From NCBI GenBank assembly GCA_007130855.1, contig SLRS01000058.1:1-36398 (forward strand): a DNA stretch of 36,398 bases, in the 5' to 3' direction. This DNA comes from Trueperaceae bacterium (GTDB taxonomy: Bacteria > Deinococcota > Deinococci > Deinococcales > Trueperaceae). Positions 18,099 through 31,954 of the stretch are shown in pieces. Made by a program: the position numbers and the translations under genes. Every line of letters starts with the position of its first letter. The stretch's first letter is position 1. Below the pieces are notes generated by a model. That model was given only the letters and a program-made list of their open reading frames with translations, did no database searches and was not told where the DNA came from.

Positions 18099-18962
18099 TC
18101 AGCGCCGCTGCGTGAAGGCCGCGATCACGAACACCAGCGCCTGCGTGAGGATGATCGCGCTCCCGGTCGGCAGATCGAACAGGTACGAGCCGGCCACGCC
18201 CAGCGCCGTCGTGGTGGTGCCGATGATCACCGCGATCACGGTCATGGCGATCATCGAGCGGGCCCAGAGGCGCGCGGCCGCCGCCGGGATCACCAGGTAG
18301 GCGGCCATCAGGATGATGCCTACCACGGTCGCGCTGACGGCGATGATCACGGCCGCCAGGCCGAACAGCAGGTACTCGAGCAGCCGCGAGCGCACGCCGT
18401 CCGTGCGCGCGAGCTCGTCGTCGAACGTCGCGTAGGCCAGTCGCCCCCAGAGCGTCAGCAGCAGCGTGATCGAGCCGACAGCCACCAGCGTGATGATGAT
18501 CAACTCGGTGCCGCGCACGGCCAGGATGCTGCCGAAGAGCAGGTCCATCACGTTCACGCCGATGTTCACGTCGGGCGGGATGCGCGAGAAGAACAGCACC
18601 CCCAGGGCCACCGCCACCGCGAAGAACACGCCGATGGCGGTGTCGCTCGACAGCTCGGTGCGGTCGCGGACCCAGGCGATCCCGAGGCCGGTGAGGAGCG
18701 CGAAGGGGACGGCGATCCACAGCGGATTGCGCAGCAGCGCGGCACCCTCGCTCGAGAGCCCGGAGACGACGATGACGAAGGCGCCGATGCCCATCCCGCC
18801 GAAGGCGGCGTGGGCCAACCCATCGCCGAGGAACGACAGCCTGCGTTGCACCACGAACACGCCCAACAGGGCGCACATGCACGCGATCAGCAGGCCGGCG
18901 AGCAGCGCGCGCTGCATGAACCCGAAGGCGAACGCCTCGACCAGCTCGCCGACCAGGGTCAC
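18099..18962 (-). CDS. znuB: Zinc ABC transporter permease ZnuB
   Basis: 287 residues, a typical ABC-3 family permease with about eight membrane helices. It opens with the helix FGFMQRALLAGLLIACMCALLGVFVVQRRLSFLGDGLAHAAFGG-like conserved stretch (first 55 residues) that defines zinc/manganese permeases. It forms the membrane channel for Zn uptake with the ATPase and binding protein encoded just upstream. Start GTG 18962 overlaps the ATPase stop (GTGA). Manganese cannot be excluded from the permease alone; the neighbouring AztD and Fur-family genes favour zinc. Confidence 0.92.
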   Translation of the reverse strand: MTLVGELVEAFAFGFMQRALLAGLLIACMCALLGVFVVQRRLSFLGDGLAHAAFGGMGIGAFVIVVSGLSSEGAALLRNPLWIAVPFALLTGLGIAWVRDRTELSSDTAIGVFFAVAVALGVLFFSRIPPDVNIGVNVMDLLFGSILAVRGTELIIITLVAVGSITLLLTLWGRLAYATFDDELARTDGVRSRLLEYLLFGLAAVIIAVSATVVGIILMAAYLVIPAAAARLWARSMIAMTVIAVIIGTTTTALGVAGSYLFDLPTGSAIILTQALVFVIAAFTQRR

Positions 18963-19750
18963 GAGTGCACCCGCCGCGCGTGGGTGTGCGGCACGTGGCC
19001 GTGCCCGACGTGGCCGTACGCCTCCTGCAGGCAGGCCTCGCACATCACGTCCGCGGGCAGTCCGAAGCCGTGGACCCGGCTGTTGAGCACCAGCGCGCGC
19101 GTGGCGTGATAGCGCGCGGCGGCGAGGTCGTGCGTCACCATCACGACCGTGGCGCCGGTGCGGGCCTGGTAGCGCTCGAGCAGGAGCGACAGGTCGTGTT
19201 CGGCCAGGTAGTCGACGCCGGTGGCGGGCTCGTCGAGCAGCACCAGCGCGGGCTCGCGCACCAGGGCCCGTGCCAGGTAGACGCGCTGCAGCTCTCCGCC
19301 CGACAGGCGTGACAAGGCCCGGTCGGCCAACGCCGCCGCGCCGACCTCCGCGAGCGCCTCGAGCGCCCGGTTGCGCTCCGGGGGACGCACGCGCGCCGGC
19401 CAGCGGCGGCGTAGCCCCGTCACCACCAGCTCCACCGCCGTCGCTGGGAAGGTGCGGTCGAACGTCTTGAGTTGCGGGACGTAGCCGATGCGCTCGGGCA
19501 CGTCGCCGGCATGGCGGCCGAAGAGGGCGGCGTGACCCGAGTCGGGAGTCACCAGCCCGAGGGCGACCTTCACCAGCGTCGACTTGCCGGCGCCGTTCGG
19601 GCCGACGATGGCGAGGAACTGGCCCGCCTCGAGGTCGAAACTGACCCGGTCGAGCACCTGCGCGTCGCCGAAGCGCACGCTCACGTGATGCACGTGCACC
19701 ACCGGCAGCGCCCCGGCCTGCCGAGCTGGCCGGCGCGCGGCGACGCTCAC
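18959..19750 (-). CDS. znuC: Zinc ABC transporter ATPase ZnuC
   Basis: 263 residues. Walker A GPNGAGKST at 50-58, Q-loop VPQLKTFDR near 91-99, signature LSGGE at 149-153, Walker B LVLLDEP at 169-175 and switch His207 are intact. It powers uptake through ZnuB. GTG 19750 overlaps the znuA stop (GTGA). The C-terminal tail (236-263) has C-E-A-C at 237-240 followed by six His in GHVGHGHVPHTH and one more near the end, a likely metal-binding tail of a kind seen in some zinc and metal ATPases that could sense cytoplasmic Zn. Confidence 0.92.
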   Translation of the reverse strand: MSVAARRPARQAGALPVVHVHHVSVRFGDAQVLDRVSFDLEAGQFLAIVGPNGAGKSTLVKVALGLVTPDSGHAALFGRHAGDVPERIGYVPQLKTFDRTFPATAVELVVTGLRRRWPARVRPPERNRALEALAEVGAAALADRALSRLSGGELQRVYLARALVREPALVLLDEPATGVDYLAEHDLSLLLERYQARTGATVVMVTHDLAAARYHATRALVLNSRVHGFGLPADVMCEACLQEAYGHVGHGHVPHTHARRVHS

Positions 19751-20709
19751 CGCAGGCCTTCGAGGAGCACCCCGGCGTTGTGACGCAGCAACTCGTCGTA
19801 CGCCTCGCGCCCCGGGAAGCCGCCGAGCGGATCGAGCTCGAACAGCTCGATGCCGGCCTCGGCGGCCACCACTTCCGCGGGTCGCCGGTTGAGCTGGACC
19901 TCGCTGAACACGGCGCTCGCGCCGCTCGCGGCGATCTTGCCCAGGGCGTAGCGCAGGTACGCGGGGCTGGGCTCCCGCCCCGGGAACGGCTCGATCTCGA
20001 CGATCAGATCGAGCCCGTAGCGCGCCGCGAAGTAGGGCCAGGCGTCGTGGAACGGCACGAAGGCGGCCCCAGCGATCGGGCCGAGCAGCGCCTCGAGTTC
20101 GGCGTCGAGGTCGAGCAGTTCCTGCCGGACGCGACTCGCCGCGGTGGCGTAGGCCTCGGCGTTGGCGGGATCGACGTCGGCGAGCGCCTCGGCCACCAGC
20201 GCCGCGGCCTCGCGCATCACCAGCGGATCGAGCCACACGTGAGGGTTGAATCCCAGTACGGCGCCATGCGCGTCGATCGGAAGCAGGTCCGGGAAGGCCC
20301 CGCGCAGGACCCCCTGGACCCGCTCGTCGGCGATGACCTCCACGAGCGGAGCGCGGCTCCCGGAGGCTTCGACCAGCTCGCGCAGCCACAGGTCGAGCCC
20401 GCCGTTGAGCACCACCAGGTCGGCGTCGGCGATGCGGCCCACGTCGCGCGGCGTCGGATCGAAGGTGTGCGGGGAGGCGCCGGGCGGCAACACCCGCACC
20501 ACGTCGGCGTGCGCACCGGCGACCTGGCGCACGATGTCGAACAGCGGGTGGATCGACACCACCACGCTGGTCCGCGCGAGGGCGCCGCCCAGCAGCGCGA
20601 GCACGGCGATCGCGACGACCAGGCGCGCGCGACGGTCAGACCCGCCGCAACGCGCCGAGGAGCGGATGCGATTCCCCATGCGGCTCCGTAGTTGGGAACG
20701 AGTTCTCAT
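19747..20709 (-). CDS. znuA: Zinc-binding periplasmic protein ZnuA
   Basis: 320 residues, cluster A-I metal-binding protein. Candidate Zn ligands are His54 (SIHPLFD), His81 (SPHTFDP), His157 (NPHVWLDP), His221 (PFHDAWPYF) and Asp293 (ELDPLGG). There is no long His-rich loop between the second and third ligands, unlike many ZnuA proteins. A long basic N-terminus (28 residues) precedes the hydrophobic export segment (about 29-46). ATG 20709 is 6 nt after a TAGGAT box, so it is probably leaderless. Its first codons also form the putative Zur operator. It delivers zinc to ZnuBC. Confidence 0.92.
   Translation of the reverse strand: MRTRSQLRSRMGNRIRSSARCGGSDRRARLVVAIAVLALLGGALARTSVVVSIHPLFDIVRQVAGAHADVVRVLPPGASPHTFDPTPRDVGRIADADLVVLNGGLDLWLRELVEASGSRAPLVEVIADERVQGVLRGAFPDLLPIDAHGAVLGFNPHVWLDPLVMREAAALVAEALADVDPANAEAYATAASRVRQELLDLDAELEALLGPIAGAAFVPFHDAWPYFAARYGLDLIVEIEPFPGREPSPAYLRYALGKIAASGASAVFSEVQLNRRPAEVVAAEAGIELFELDPLGGFPGREAYDELLRHNAGVLLEGLR
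20693..20708. promoter_or_regulatory. Putative Zur operator at znuA (TGGGAACGAGTTCTCA)
   Basis: A 16-bp imperfect palindrome, TGRGAAC-like half sites separated by 2 bp. It starts 8 bp downstream of the -10 box and lies within codons 1-6 of znuA. It matches the box before rpmG at 12 of 16 positions, including both outer ends. A bound repressor here would block the start of transcription. No other regulator site is visible. Confidence 0.55.
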
Positions 20710-23193: not shown

Positions 23194-24861
23194 TCAGTGG
23201 ATGACGGCGCCGGGGATCGCCATGACGGCGACGCTGCCCGGGGCGAACGGCAGGTGGAAGTGGGTCTCCACCTCCATATTGTCGAGGTCGACGACCCAGA
23301 CCGAGTGGTGACCTGGGTCGGTCACGAAGGCGTGGTCGCCGAGCAGCGCGAAGGCCGGCCGCGGCTGTCCCGCCTCCCAGGCGTCGAGGACTGCGAGGCT
23401 GGCGCGCACGTCGCCCGTCATGGGGTCGAGCGCGTGGAGGTGACCGTCGAGCGTGAGCACCACCAGGGTGGATCCATCGTCGGCGAAGCGCATGCCCGCA
23501 GGACCCGCGCTGAGCGCAACGGGGGTGAGCGTGGCGCCGTCGGGATCGATCAGCGCGATGCCTGGGCCGAAGTTGCCCACCATCATGGCGCTGCCGGGGT
23601 CCGCCGCGAGGGTGCCCACGCGGGCGCGCTCTGGACTGCCGCTCGGGTTGTCGATCTTGACGGACGAGAAGCCGCCCTCGCCGTCGACGGACACGACGAG
23701 GACCCCGTCCGCGCAACCGAAGGCGACCGCGTTGCCGCGTACCGCCTGGCCGTGGAGGCCAGGACAGCCGTCGAAGCTGGCGAGTTCGCTGCCGACACGG
23801 TCATGGACGCGCACACCCGCCTCGCCCAGGCCGCCGCCGATCAGGTAGCCGTCGACCACCGCGAGCGAGCCGTGGTCCGCGGCCGGGCCTGGCACTTGGA
23901 CGAAGTCGAGGCTGATGCCCAGCAAGCGGGCGTCGAGCCACGCCATGCTGCCGTCGCCGTCGTTGTACACGGCGATGTCGTTGCCTCGCGCGAAGAAGTG
24001 CGTCGGCTGCGGCCCCAGGTTGACCGTCTTGAGCACGTAGGGGGAACCCTGGAGGAGGTCCATGTGGTCGCCGTGGTCGACGACGCTGAGGCCGCTGTGC
24101 ACGAAGCTGACACGGTTCGCGTCACGGTGCGTGACGGCGGCGAACTGCGCGTTGGGGAGTTGGTGCACGCGTCCGAGACTCGGAACCGTGAAGCGGCCCA
24201 GCACATCGCCATCGGCGGCATCGAGCACGAGCAGCTCCGGTCCGTCGAGCGACGCGACGAGCAGGCGAACGCCGGCGAGTTCGCCGTGGTCGTGGCCGAG
24301 GTCGTGGTCGCCGTCGTGGTCGTGCTCGTGGCCATGATCGGAGTCGTGATCGTGGTCGTGGTCGTGGCCGTGACCGTTGTCGTCGCCCGCGCTCGGATCG
24401 ACCACGCGCACGGCGATCGGCGGCGTCGTGTAGCGCAGTTCGCCCCGGTGGGTCCAGGTGAACACCACCTCGCTGACGCCGACGCCGACGCCGCGCACGT
24501 GGACGTGGTCGCCGTGATCGACGAACTCGACGACGCCGGCGGGCGCACCGGGCGCCAGCGCGACCCCGAAGTCGTTCACGCTCGGGTCGCCCAAGTCGCG
24601 GTCGCGCCCGTCGGCGGACACGATCACCGCGCCCAGCGACACGCGGCCGTCGAGCGGCACGTCCGGGAGACGACCGTGCCAGTGCTCCCCGTGGACGTCC
24701 GCAACCGGTGCACGATCGGCTCCGCGGTCGAGGATGACGAACTCGGCGATGGGGCTCTCGTGATCGTGATCGTGCGCATGGTCGTGAGCGGTGGCCCACG
24801 CCACGGCGAACAGGGTGAGGACGGCGATGCCGAGGATCGATCGGAGGAACGCTCGCGTCAT
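23194..24861 (-). CDS. aztD: AztD-like zinc metallochaperone with extra N-terminal domain and His-rich linker
   Basis: 555 residues from ATG 24861, preceded by AGGAG 6 nt away. An ATG at 24903 overlapping the rpmG stop (TGATG) is also possible, but the shorter form gives a clean signal peptide (1-25, ending AWATA). The mature end starts HDHAHDHDHE. Residues 37-155 are an extra His-bearing domain (VHGEHWHGRL, DHGDHVHV) I cannot name. Residues 162-192 are a His/Asp run with 14 His. Residues 196-555 are a beta-propeller matching AztD, which hands zinc to the binding protein in the periplasm; two Cys (PGCPGLH-type CPGLHG and FGCADG) are visible. It follows rpmG in one operon behind the Zur-like box. 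Confidence 0.8.
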   Translation of the reverse strand: MTRAFLRSILGIAVLTLFAVAWATAHDHAHDHDHESPIAEFVILDRGADRAPVADVHGEHWHGRLPDVPLDGRVSLGAVIVSADGRDRDLGDPSVNDFGVALAPGAPAGVVEFVDHGDHVHVRGVGVGVSEVVFTWTHRGELRYTTPPIAVRVVDPSAGDDNGHGHDHDHDHDSDHGHEHDHDGDHDLGHDHGELAGVRLLVASLDGPELLVLDAADGDVLGRFTVPSLGRVHQLPNAQFAAVTHRDANRVSFVHSGLSVVDHGDHMDLLQGSPYVLKTVNLGPQPTHFFARGNDIAVYNDGDGSMAWLDARLLGISLDFVQVPGPAADHGSLAVVDGYLIGGGLGEAGVRVHDRVGSELASFDGCPGLHGQAVRGNAVAFGCADGVLVVSVDGEGGFSSVKIDNPSGSPERARVGTLAADPGSAMMVGNFGPGIALIDPDGATLTPVALSAGPAGMRFADDGSTLVVLTLDGHLHALDPMTGDVRASLAVLDAWEAGQPRPAFALLGDHAFVTDPGHHSVWVVDLDNMEVETHFHLPFAPGSVAVMAIPGAVIH

Positions 24862-24902: not shown

Positions 24903-25064
24903 TCAGGCCCAGTGCTCCTCGAAGGACACGTGCTTGCGGAGGATGGGATCGTCCTTGCGGCGCTCGACCTTGGCGGTGGTCGTGCGGCGGTTCTTCGTGG
25001 TGGCGTACGTGGTGCCGGCGCTGCTGCGCAGCAACATCGTGATGCGGGGTCCGTCCTTGGCCAC
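24903..25064 (-). CDS. rpmG: 50S ribosomal protein L33, zinc-independent form
   Basis: 53 residues from GTG 25064; AGAGG lies about 7 nt upstream. [38 protein letters not shown] and KHVSFEE are L33. It has no cysteine, so lacks the zinc ribbon of C+ L33. In many bacteria such C- paralogues are made under zinc starvation under Zur control to spare zinc. Position behind the operator-like palindrome and ahead of aztD supports that here. Some bacteria have only a C- L33, so paralogy is not proven. Confidence 0.93.
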
Positions 25065-25095
25065 GGTGTTCCTCTCTCCGGGGTGTGAACCTTAT

Positions 25096-25111
25096 TGAGA
25101 ACGGAGTCTCA
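25096..25111. promoter_or_regulatory. Putative Zur operator at rpmG-aztD (TGAGAACGGAGTCTCA)
   Basis: A 16-bp palindrome-like site, 17 bp downstream of the -10 box. A further TTCTCAA at 25112-25118 completes an outer 24-bp repeat with TTGAGAA at 25095-25101. It shares 12 of 16 bases with the znuA box. Position downstream of the start of transcription fits repression. Confidence 0.55.
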
Positions 25112-25128
25112 TTCTCAACACGACGCTC

Positions 25129-25565: not shown

Positions 25566-26012
25566 GTGTCCAGCGACGCCCAGAGCGGCCGCGCCGCCGA
25601 AGGCCGCGGCGGCGAGCGCCTCCCGCCCGACATGCGAAGCACCTCTCAACGACGTGCGATCCTGCAGGCCCTCGACGAAGCGCCCGGTCCGCTGACGCCG
25701 CATCAGGTGCTCGAACGCGCCGGCGCCATCCAGGGATCGCTCGGCCTCGCCACCGTCTACCGCAACCTCGCGACCCTCGAGGAGGCCGGCGAGATCGTGG
25801 CGGTGCATCTGCCGAACGAGACGCGGCGCTACGAGCCGACCGGCCGCGGCCACCACCATCACTTCCGCTGCGACAACTGCGAGGGTGTGTTCGAGCTCGC
25901 CACCACCTGCCCGGTGGCGGTGCTCGAGGGCGTGACGTTGCCCGGCGGCTTCGAAGTGCGCGGCCACGCCCTGACGCTCTACGGGCTGTGCCCGCGCTGC
26001 CGAGGGGCGTGA
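25566..26012 (+). CDS. zur: Fur-family regulator, probable zinc repressor Zur
   Basis: 148 residues from GTG 25566. The first 22 residues are an extra tail. A winged helix (23-85) has recognition helix GLATVYRNLATLEEAG (60-75). A metal site GHHHHFRC (95-102), Cys102/Cys105 (CDNC) and Cys142/Cys145 (CPRC) form the structural zinc of Fur proteins. Fur, Zur, Mur and PerR cannot be separated by these motifs alone. Location between znu and aztD genes, with matching palindromes at both, makes Zur the best reading. It would repress znuACB and rpmG-aztD when zinc is plentiful. Confidence 0.85.
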   Translation: MSSDAQSGRAAEGRGGERLPPDMRSTSQRRAILQALDEAPGPLTPHQVLERAGAIQGSLGLATVYRNLATLEEAGEIVAVHLPNETRRYEPTGRGHHHHFRCDNCEGVFELATTCPVAVLEGVTLPGGFEVRGHALTLYGLCPRCRGA

Positions 26013-30505: not shown

Positions 30506-31528
30506 TTACAGGCCGCGGTCGTCGATGACGTTGTCGACCGTATGGATGACGTTGCCTTCCGCCTCGATGTCCGCGGCGATCACGGTCACGGCGTCGTTGA
30601 TCACGAGGTCGTCGCCGACCTGTTCGACGAAGAGGTTCTCGCCGTCGATCGTCTGCAGACCGAGCGGTGCGCCGGCGGCGGCCGCGATCTCCAGCATCAG
30701 CTCCTCCGCCGTCCAGCGGCCTTCCACCACGTGGAGGCCGAGGCCATCACGCAGCTCCGGGCTGGCGACGAACTCGTCGATCGTCATGCCGCGCTCGCTG
30801 GCGGCTCGCTCGAGCGCCTCGTCGCTGGGCGCGAAGACCGTGTAGGGCCCTGCGGCCATGTCCTCGACGACCGGCGCCGCTGCGAAGATCGCCGCGAAGC
30901 GCTGCAGTTCAGGAACCGCCGCGGCGCTGGTGCTCACGTTGCGCGCGTCGTCGGTGGCGGTCACCGGCGCGAACTGCTCGGGCGTCGCGCCGATCTGCTC
31001 GGTCGCCGCGGTCGTGCCGAGGAAGGCATCGATGGTGTGGACGACGTGGTCCTGGGCCTCGAGGTCAGGGGATTCCAAGGCTGCGACGTCGTCGAACACG
31101 ATGGCGTCGTCGACCAGGCTCACCAGGACCGGTCGGCCGTCCATCGTATCCAGCGTCACCGGCATGCCGCCGGCAGCGTCGATCTCACTGCGCAGGTCGG
31201 CCTCGGTCCAGCGGCCCTCCACGACGTGGTAGCCGAACCACTCGAACAGTTCGTCACTGGCGAGGAACTCGTCGATGGTGATGCCGCGCTCGAGCGCCGC
31301 CTGCTCGAAGGCCGCATCGGTGGGTGCGAAGACCGTGTAGGGGCCCTCTGCCAAGTCCTGGCCACCGGGCCACGCCTCGAAGGCTTGCGAGAAGCGGCCG
31401 AGCTCGGGCACACCGGCCGTGACGTCCGTCAGGGTCCTGCCGGCGTAATCGTCGTGCTGATCCGCCGAGGCCGAACCGCCGACGAAGGCGAATGCAAGGG
31501 TGAGCGCGAGTAGGCTGCGGATGATCAT
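30506..31528 (-). CDS. Secreted protein with two FAS1 (fasciclin) domains
   Basis: 340 residues from ATG 31528, preceded by AGGAGG 7 nt away. Signal peptide 1-22 ends GSASA. Two FAS1 domains follow, roughly 27-170 and 190-340. Each has an H1 motif (GPYTVFAPTDAAF, GPYTVFAPSDEAL) and an H2 motif (VVHTIDAFL, NVIHTVDNVID). FAS1 domains mediate adhesion outside the cell. There is no anchor or sorting motif, so it is probably released or held by other matter. Within each domain the residues YHVVEGRWT recur, a sign of internal duplication. The long non-coding stretch upstream holds its leader. Confidence 0.92.
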   Translation of the reverse strand: MIIRSLLALTLAFAFVGGSASADQHDDYAGRTLTDVTAGVPELGRFSQAFEAWPGGQDLAEGPYTVFAPTDAAFEQAALERGITIDEFLASDELFEWFGYHVVEGRWTEADLRSEIDAAGGMPVTLDTMDGRPVLVSLVDDAIVFDDVAALESPDLEAQDHVVHTIDAFLGTTAATEQIGATPEQFAPVTATDDARNVSTSAAAVPELQRFAAIFAAAPVVEDMAAGPYTVFAPSDEALERAASERGMTIDEFVASPELRDGLGLHVVEGRWTAEELMLEIAAAAGAPLGLQTIDGENLFVEQVGDDLVINDAVTVIAADIEAEGNVIHTVDNVIDDRGL

Positions 31529-31635
31529 GACGTTCCTCCTCTTTGGACTCGCCGACGCACAGAGCGCCGGTCGGGTGCGCGGCCGGCTCGTCGCTTCGCC
31601 GCGTCCGGTGAACGGCGAGTGGCGCGCACCAGGTG

Positions 31636-31641
31636 AGCATA
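31636..31641 (-). promoter_or_regulatory. Possible -10 box TATGCT of FAS1 gene
   Basis: TATGCT about 108 nt before the start codon. TAAGGT at 31650-31655 is an equally good alternative. Both lack a convincing -35. Confidence 0.3.
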
Positions 31642-31954
31642 AGAACGGAACCTTAGCCATGTGTTGGTGCCACTTGAGAAGTACTGCCATCGGGTGAGGG
31701 CTCGCGGATCATGTCGGCGTGAACATGCGCGAAGGGACTGTCACGTCCGTCAGCCGCGCAGCGACGCTTCCTCACCGTGTTTCATCTTCGAACCCGCCAC
31801 ACCTTCGTTCGAGTCGCGAATCGACCTCGCCGACCTCGCTCATCTCGAATCCTTGTCGTGCTGAACGTGCTCAGGGGAGCCGTCGGCTCCTCCGTAGGGG
31901 ACCGCTGCGGCTGGGCCTCAGGCCCGGGCACCGCCCTGCCCGACCACGCACGAG

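Follow-up and report, generated by a model that had tools for sequence, protein, structure and literature searches.

On the reverse strand of the window (the whole 36,398-nucleotide stretch of Trueperaceae DNA analysed here), we identified a gene whose product is probably an AztD-family secreted zinc metallochaperone, made under zinc starvation, that has gained a mobile N-terminal zinc-capture domain. We also favour, with somewhat less assurance, the broader reading that this domain represents an undescribed zinc-capture family that has spread among alkaline soda-lake bacteria of three or more phyla and has entered, at His/Asp tracts, zinc-trafficking proteins that are unrelated to one another, an independently evolved parallel to the streptococcal Pht proteins. 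Literature searches for the insert or the fusion found no description among open-licence papers. The gene, the segments of its product and the zinc sites of the propeller are as follows.

23194..24861, reverse strand: aztD-like gene with an extra N-terminal domain, 555 aa (ORF translation; NF038015 AztD; 6ck1/6cmk)
24787..24861, reverse strand: Sec signal peptide, residues 1-25, ending in AWATA and without a lipobox Cys (sequence; helix 3-24 in the AF2 model)
24757..24786, reverse strand: His/Asp tract HDHAHDHDHE, residues 26-35, at the mature N-terminus (sequence)
24397..24756, reverse strand: extra domain, residues 36-155, a predicted Ig/BIG2-like beta-sandwich (AF2, relatives in ZnuA-type SBPs and lipoproteins, conservation in 28 copies)
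24277..24396, reverse strand: disordered His/Asp linker, residues 156-195 (composition; pLDDT < 50 in AF2)
23197..24276, reverse strand: AztD beta-propeller, residues 196-555 (NF038015, PDB matches, AF2, Foldseek)
24058..24075, reverse strand: zinc site 2 (transfer site), H263, H266 and D268, equivalent to PdAztD H99, H102 and D104 (alignment)
23197-23199, reverse strand: fourth site 2 ligand, the C-terminal H555, equivalent to PdAztD H408 (alignment)
23713..24000, reverse strand: zinc site 1, H288, H330 and H370, with disulfide C366-C383, equivalent to PdAztD H124, H167, H218 and C214-C231 (alignment)

Propeller, zinc sites and N-terminal extension

The start of the gene is preceded by a good Shine-Dalgarno sequence (AGGAG, 5 nt ahead of the ATG). 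The sequence-only reading had proposed that the C-terminal part resembles the AztD propeller, and profile, sequence and fold agree that the propeller is AztD. The NCBIfam model NF038015 (AztD) matches residues 205-546 (E=9e-51, 172.6 bits), the PDB AztD chains 6ck1 and 6cmk match by sequence (E=1e-31 and 2e-29, respectively), and a Foldseek comparison of the full-length AF2 model with AztD crystal structures gives TM scores (by target) of 0.82-0.87 at E<=1e-25, the next-best fold match standing at E=7e-13. The profile score of 172.6 bits lies below the 400-bit NCBIfam naming cut-off, which is reached by no AztD among 39 family genomes; this value is a conservative naming threshold, not a biological definition, and the protein is filed as a divergent AztD.

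All seven AztD zinc ligands and the disulfide cysteines, as described for sites 1 and 2 and for Cys214-Cys231 of Paracoccus denitrificans AztD (PdAztD; PMC6689063), are kept in the 555-residue protein, and H263, H266 and D268 are invariant across the family alignment. PdAztD donates zinc to AztC from site 2 only. The earlier reading's idea of a three-site zinc buffer that loads ZnuA is a proposal about function; given the conserved transfer site of the propeller itself, it is plausible that zinc is handed to the AztC-type SBP encoded nearby.

Ahead of the propeller, the open reading frame holds the approximately 120 extra residues that the earlier reading had described, with the motifs VHGEHWHG (residues 56-63) and DHGDHVHV (residues 115-122), and the mature N-terminus is His-rich as had been stated. 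Each of these motifs contains a histidine triad, H57-x-x-H60-x-H62 in the first and H116-x-x-H119-x-H121 in the second; a pair of HxxHxH motifs arises in the N-terminal domain in 2 of 20,000 composition-preserving shuffles, placing their occurrence above chance. The His-rich linker is likewise real, and its original count of 14 His in 31 residues was a small overcount, the tally being 12 His, alongside 12 Asp, over the 39 residues 157-195. The full-length AF2 model renders the propeller well and the N-terminal domain poorly, because just four alignment rows cover the latter.

Fold, conservation and spread of the extra domain

The extra domain could not be named from the letters, and Pfam, NCBIfam and PDB sequence searches with the domain and its alignment likewise returned nothing credible and no solved relative; plasmid and phage collections gave no match. 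What these analyses do reveal is a recurring module of ZnuA-type SBPs and lipoproteins. Modelled alone with 11 relatives, the domain gave a confident all-beta AF2 structure (pLDDT 93.9, pTM 0.86), whose best fold matches are mostly Ig-like (Rib, SbsC and LigA). The predicted fold is a general Ig-like beta-sandwich with no close structural relative. It resembles BIG2 and the bacterial Ig-like domains in this predicted fold and in a weak profile hit (22.7 bits) on G313, a repeat protein of BIG2-like type, and differs from them in that the TM scores reach only about 0.45-0.53, in that there is no Pfam Big-family match and in its paired histidine triads, which are the hallmark here. Fold matches to pMMO/AMO were rejected, being no better than those to other Ig-like sandwiches.

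Across 28 non-redundant copies, the first motif retains H57 in 21, H60 in 28, W61 in 28, H62 in 27 and G63 in 28, and the second retains H116 in 22, G117 in 28, D118 in 26, H119 in 27 and H121 in 22. It is the two HxH pairs that form the core, and the His that leads each triad varies more. HxxHxH occurs twice in the window copy and at least once in 26 of the 28, and some SBP copies lack one triad His or carry a degraded second motif (QGEYVD, HGDHLT or FGDHVV). The AztD transfer hairpin DHGDHMD and the domain sequence DHGDHVH have the letters DHGDH in common on unrelated folds, which we read as convergence.

A scan of short peptide patterns over the contigs of 84,980 species yielded 13 domain loci, in three Trueperaceae MAGs, eight Spirochaetaceae/Spirochaetales MAGs (where the best segment is 68-79% identical) and two 'Mollicutes' MAGs; by ORF reading, the Spirochaetal and Mollicutes copies sit inside ZnuA-type SBPs. 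All 13 named loci come, by their sample codes, from soda-lake MAGs, in a pattern scan that favours near relatives. The codes CSSed, T3Sed and B1Sed denote Kulunda soda-lake sediments, while DLM, GEM and PLM, read from their initials alone, are presumably Cariboo soda-lake mats, which is suggestive of a soda-lake habitat for domain carriers. Profile searches around one Mollicutes MAG (G117) found the domain in 7 of 346 genomes of its class and 14 of 90 of its order, and gave three matches, including the weak BIG2-like G313, among 392 genomes sampled from its phylum; the search around a Spirochaetal MAG (G111) found it in 8 of 297 genomes of the class. In Deinococcota, the domain is present in 4 of 111 genomes, all of the window's genus and fused to AztD. 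Far from being found in most AztD proteins, the outcome that the earlier reading had set against itself, it occurs nowhere in the 11 genomes with AztD from the family's other genera, although in two of these (G012 and G016) the AztD gene loses its start to a contig end. With a single-sequence query, other Deinococcota gave weak hits (E 1e-4 to 7e-3), which were unrelated proteins or wrong-frame ORFs and disappeared once the profile was used.

All complete ORFs with a strong domain match encode AztD, a ZnuA-type SBP or a standalone lipoprotein. AztD carries one copy, ZnuA-type SBPs carry one, two or three in tandem between their lobes, and lipoproteins made of domain copies (L052, L062, L063, L064 and L103) carry two or three, the genes for L063 and L064 adjoining an insert-bearing znuA on the same strand. 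Insert-bearing SBPs occur in Spirochaetaceae and Bacilli-type MAGs. One Bacilli-type SBP (L056) has a domain copy without its middle (about columns 26-80), possibly a decaying insert.

In four tested SBPs, PF01297 matched to either side of the insert; for one of the four, a single match ran across it. At the insertion point, a related SBP from the window's own genome (L094) has LLLPFEAGVDPHVW, a short turn, and the Spirochaetal L038 has, in the same place, LLAWEGHH-(His/Asp)-domain-(His/Asp)-DPHVW; His/Asp tracts bracket the domain in both AztD and SBPs. The window genome (G000) encodes two further ZnuA-type cluster A-I SBPs, L094 (contig C170) and L093 (C124), and L094 resembles the insert-bearing Spirochaetal SBPs, yet is without the insert. 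An empty site is also seen in a congener (G006), whose complete AztD start has a His/Asp tract without the domain, and the domain therefore varies within the genus. In G005 and G008 the contig ends within the linker of AztD, and these two were left out of the domain presence/absence comparison; G008 begins with PSHGH, resembling the sequence that follows the domain in G007 and G004. Protein identity between the window domain and Spirochaetal copies is about 71-73%, and DNA identity to the L034 copy is 68%. This identity despite different host phyla suggests horizontal transfer, together with domain recruitment.

The His of HWH and GDH are conserved like the structural core of the domain, and the domain is confined to zinc-uptake proteins in the searches made. 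With these two observations in view, we think it unlikely that the domain is mainly an Ig-like docking element or spacer that tethers the chaperone to the SBP or the envelope while the His/Asp tracts bind metal, even though the Ig/BIG2-like fold is typical of spacers and adhesins, the domain occurs in both presumed donor and acceptor partners as well as in tandem arrays, and the triads are incomplete in some copies.

Gene context and candidate regulation

A zinc-capture role is further suggested by the surroundings of the gene, in which the following features were identified.

24903..25064, reverse strand: rpmG, encoding a Cys-free (zinc-independent type) L33, immediately upstream of aztD (sequence)
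25095..25118, reverse strand: operator-like palindrome TTGAGAATGAGACTCCGTTCTCAA upstream of rpmG-aztD (conserved across family genomes)
20692..20708, reverse strand: second operator-like copy, at the 5' end of the aztC reading frame (genome pattern search)
19747..20709, reverse strand: aztC/znuA-type cluster A-I SBP (PF01297 E=6e-61; best NCBIfam AztC E=6e-42; PDB SBPs)
18959..19723, reverse strand: ABC ATPase of aztA/znuC type (best NCBIfam model MntA, AztA second)
18099..19043, reverse strand: ABC-3 permease (best NCBIfam model AztB)
25566..26012, forward strand: Fur-family regulator, candidate Zur (PF01475 E=2e-19)

The genome's other L33, on contig C269, is of the zinc-binding type, with CTEC and a further C/H pair. 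In other bacteria, it is well established that a zinc-independent L33 paralogue comes into use when zinc is limiting. Before aztD, the palindrome is kept as TGAGAATGA-N7-TTCTCA in the window and in seven other family genomes, including other genera. A pattern built from the rpmG-aztD and aztC sites has only these two matches in the 3.55 Mb genome; the pattern was derived from the same two sites, and its informative part is the absence of further matches. The aztC-A-B-type genes (20709-18099) lie 2.5 kb from aztD and do not form one continuous operon with it. Taken together, the Cys-free L33, the importer genes and the operator-like palindrome common to aztD and aztCAB look like a zinc-starvation context, and we infer Zur regulation of the aztD and aztC operator-like sites.

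Several further observations concern these genes and their neighbours. The operator-like sequence (20692-20709) overlaps with the ATG listed for aztC, and translation probably begins instead at the internal Met 11 (MGNRIRSSARC), ahead of the signal peptide. Just upstream of aztC, an L28 gene (20887-21222, reverse strand) has a single Cys in its likely reading, i.e. it is of the Cys-poor type, and is possibly a second zinc-independent ribosomal paralogue. Directly behind the Fur-family gene, a YibE/F-family membrane protein (PF07907; 26014-27174, forward strand) ends in HAHHH and could belong to the same metal response. A secreted protein encoded at 30506-31690 (reverse strand) apparently has two tandem fasciclin-type (FAS1) repeats, judged by eye.

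It seems improbable that the domain serves Cu, Ni, Co or Mn and marks a different SBP specificity: HxH pairs bind Cu and Ni too, pMMO/AMO subunits are among the weak fold matches and the best model for the ATPase is the manganese MntA, but the best NCBIfam models for the other partners are AztD, AztC and AztB, the Cys-free L33 paralogue is a zinc-starvation signature, and a His/Asp/Glu-rich flexible loop indicates zinc specificity in cluster A-I SBPs (PMC7463823). Similarly improbable is a periplasmic zinc buffer or detoxification sponge in place of an uptake feeder, for although the very high His/Asp content would offer many low-affinity sites, the Cys-free L33 paralogue, importer genes and common operator-like sequence have the look of zinc starvation, and the same domain is found inside importer SBPs.

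Proposed zinc capture and its parallels

We hypothesize that the domain of approximately 119 residues, inserted with its two histidine triads within the His/Asp tract ahead of the propeller, would act with the flanking His/Asp stretches to trap scarce periplasmic zinc. The trapped zinc might raise the local zinc concentration beside transfer site 2 (H263, H266, D268 and H555), from which zinc would pass on to the ABC importer encoded nearby, by way of its AztC-type binding protein. Placed in the loop between the lobes of ZnuA, or made as a lipoprotein of tandem repeats from a gene next to znuA, the module could work in the same way. The analysis itself shows the architecture, the conserved ligands, where the domain occurs and is inserted, the gene context and the predicted fold; that the triads bind zinc, and in which direction it is transferred, is what we infer. 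A docking model of PdAztD places the N-terminus at the AztC interface (PMC7463823). The short N-terminal His tract of the P. denitrificans protein binds a third, weak zinc, and its deletion was without effect on the transfer rate (PMC7463823), which counts against a simple capture-and-feed version of the proposal. The window AztC has one His in the loop that requires three in P. denitrificans, and therefore the docking partner or mode may differ.

The protein resembles the characterized AztD proteins (P. denitrificans 6ck1 and Citrobacter koseri 6cmk; PMC6689063) in its propeller, both zinc sites, the Cys pair and the C-terminal His, as well as in the His tract at the mature N-terminus (DHDHDHE in PdAztD; PMC7463823) and the aztABC-type genes nearby. 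It differs in being only about 26% identical to them, in its extra two-triad domain and long His/Asp linker, and in the position of its gene, which stands apart from aztCAB and is preceded by rpmG.

The closest functional parallel, offered as an analogy, would be the streptococcal Pht/AdcAII pair, in which a ZnuA-like SBP receives zinc from an HxxHxH protein whose gene lies next to its own (PMC3842936). Pht proteins have in common with the present domain their HxxHxH motifs, extracellular location, repeated arrangement, position beside a ZnuA-like SBP and proposed role as zinc scavengers feeding it, whereas the fold predicted here is Ig-like and that of Pht is a small three-stranded sheet. Pht Pfam and NCBIfam models found no match at E<=1 in 11 domain copies, and the Pht PROSITE pattern (PMC3842936) matched none of the 28. 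Homology to Pht was rejected by these profile and pattern tests, and the comparison is kept as an analogy of motif likeness alone. AdcA (ZnuA fused to ZinT) and ZinT provide a precedent for a second zinc-capture domain on a zinc SBP; the domain described here differs in having no ZinT match, in lying in the interlobe loop and not at the C-terminus, and in occurring also on AztD.

Few donors are known on the route of zinc from the environment to the high-affinity SBP (ZinT, Pht and AztD). That donor (AztD) and acceptor (ZnuA) families have a domain in common offers a natural experiment on the contribution of such a module, and one genus provides AztD both with and without it. This unannotated domain is also a flag for zinc-uptake proteins in genomes from habitats that are probably poor in zinc. 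More generally, the pattern suggests that the zinc-capture module is portable, passing between proteins that are unrelated and being plugged into whatever feeds the zinc ABC importer.
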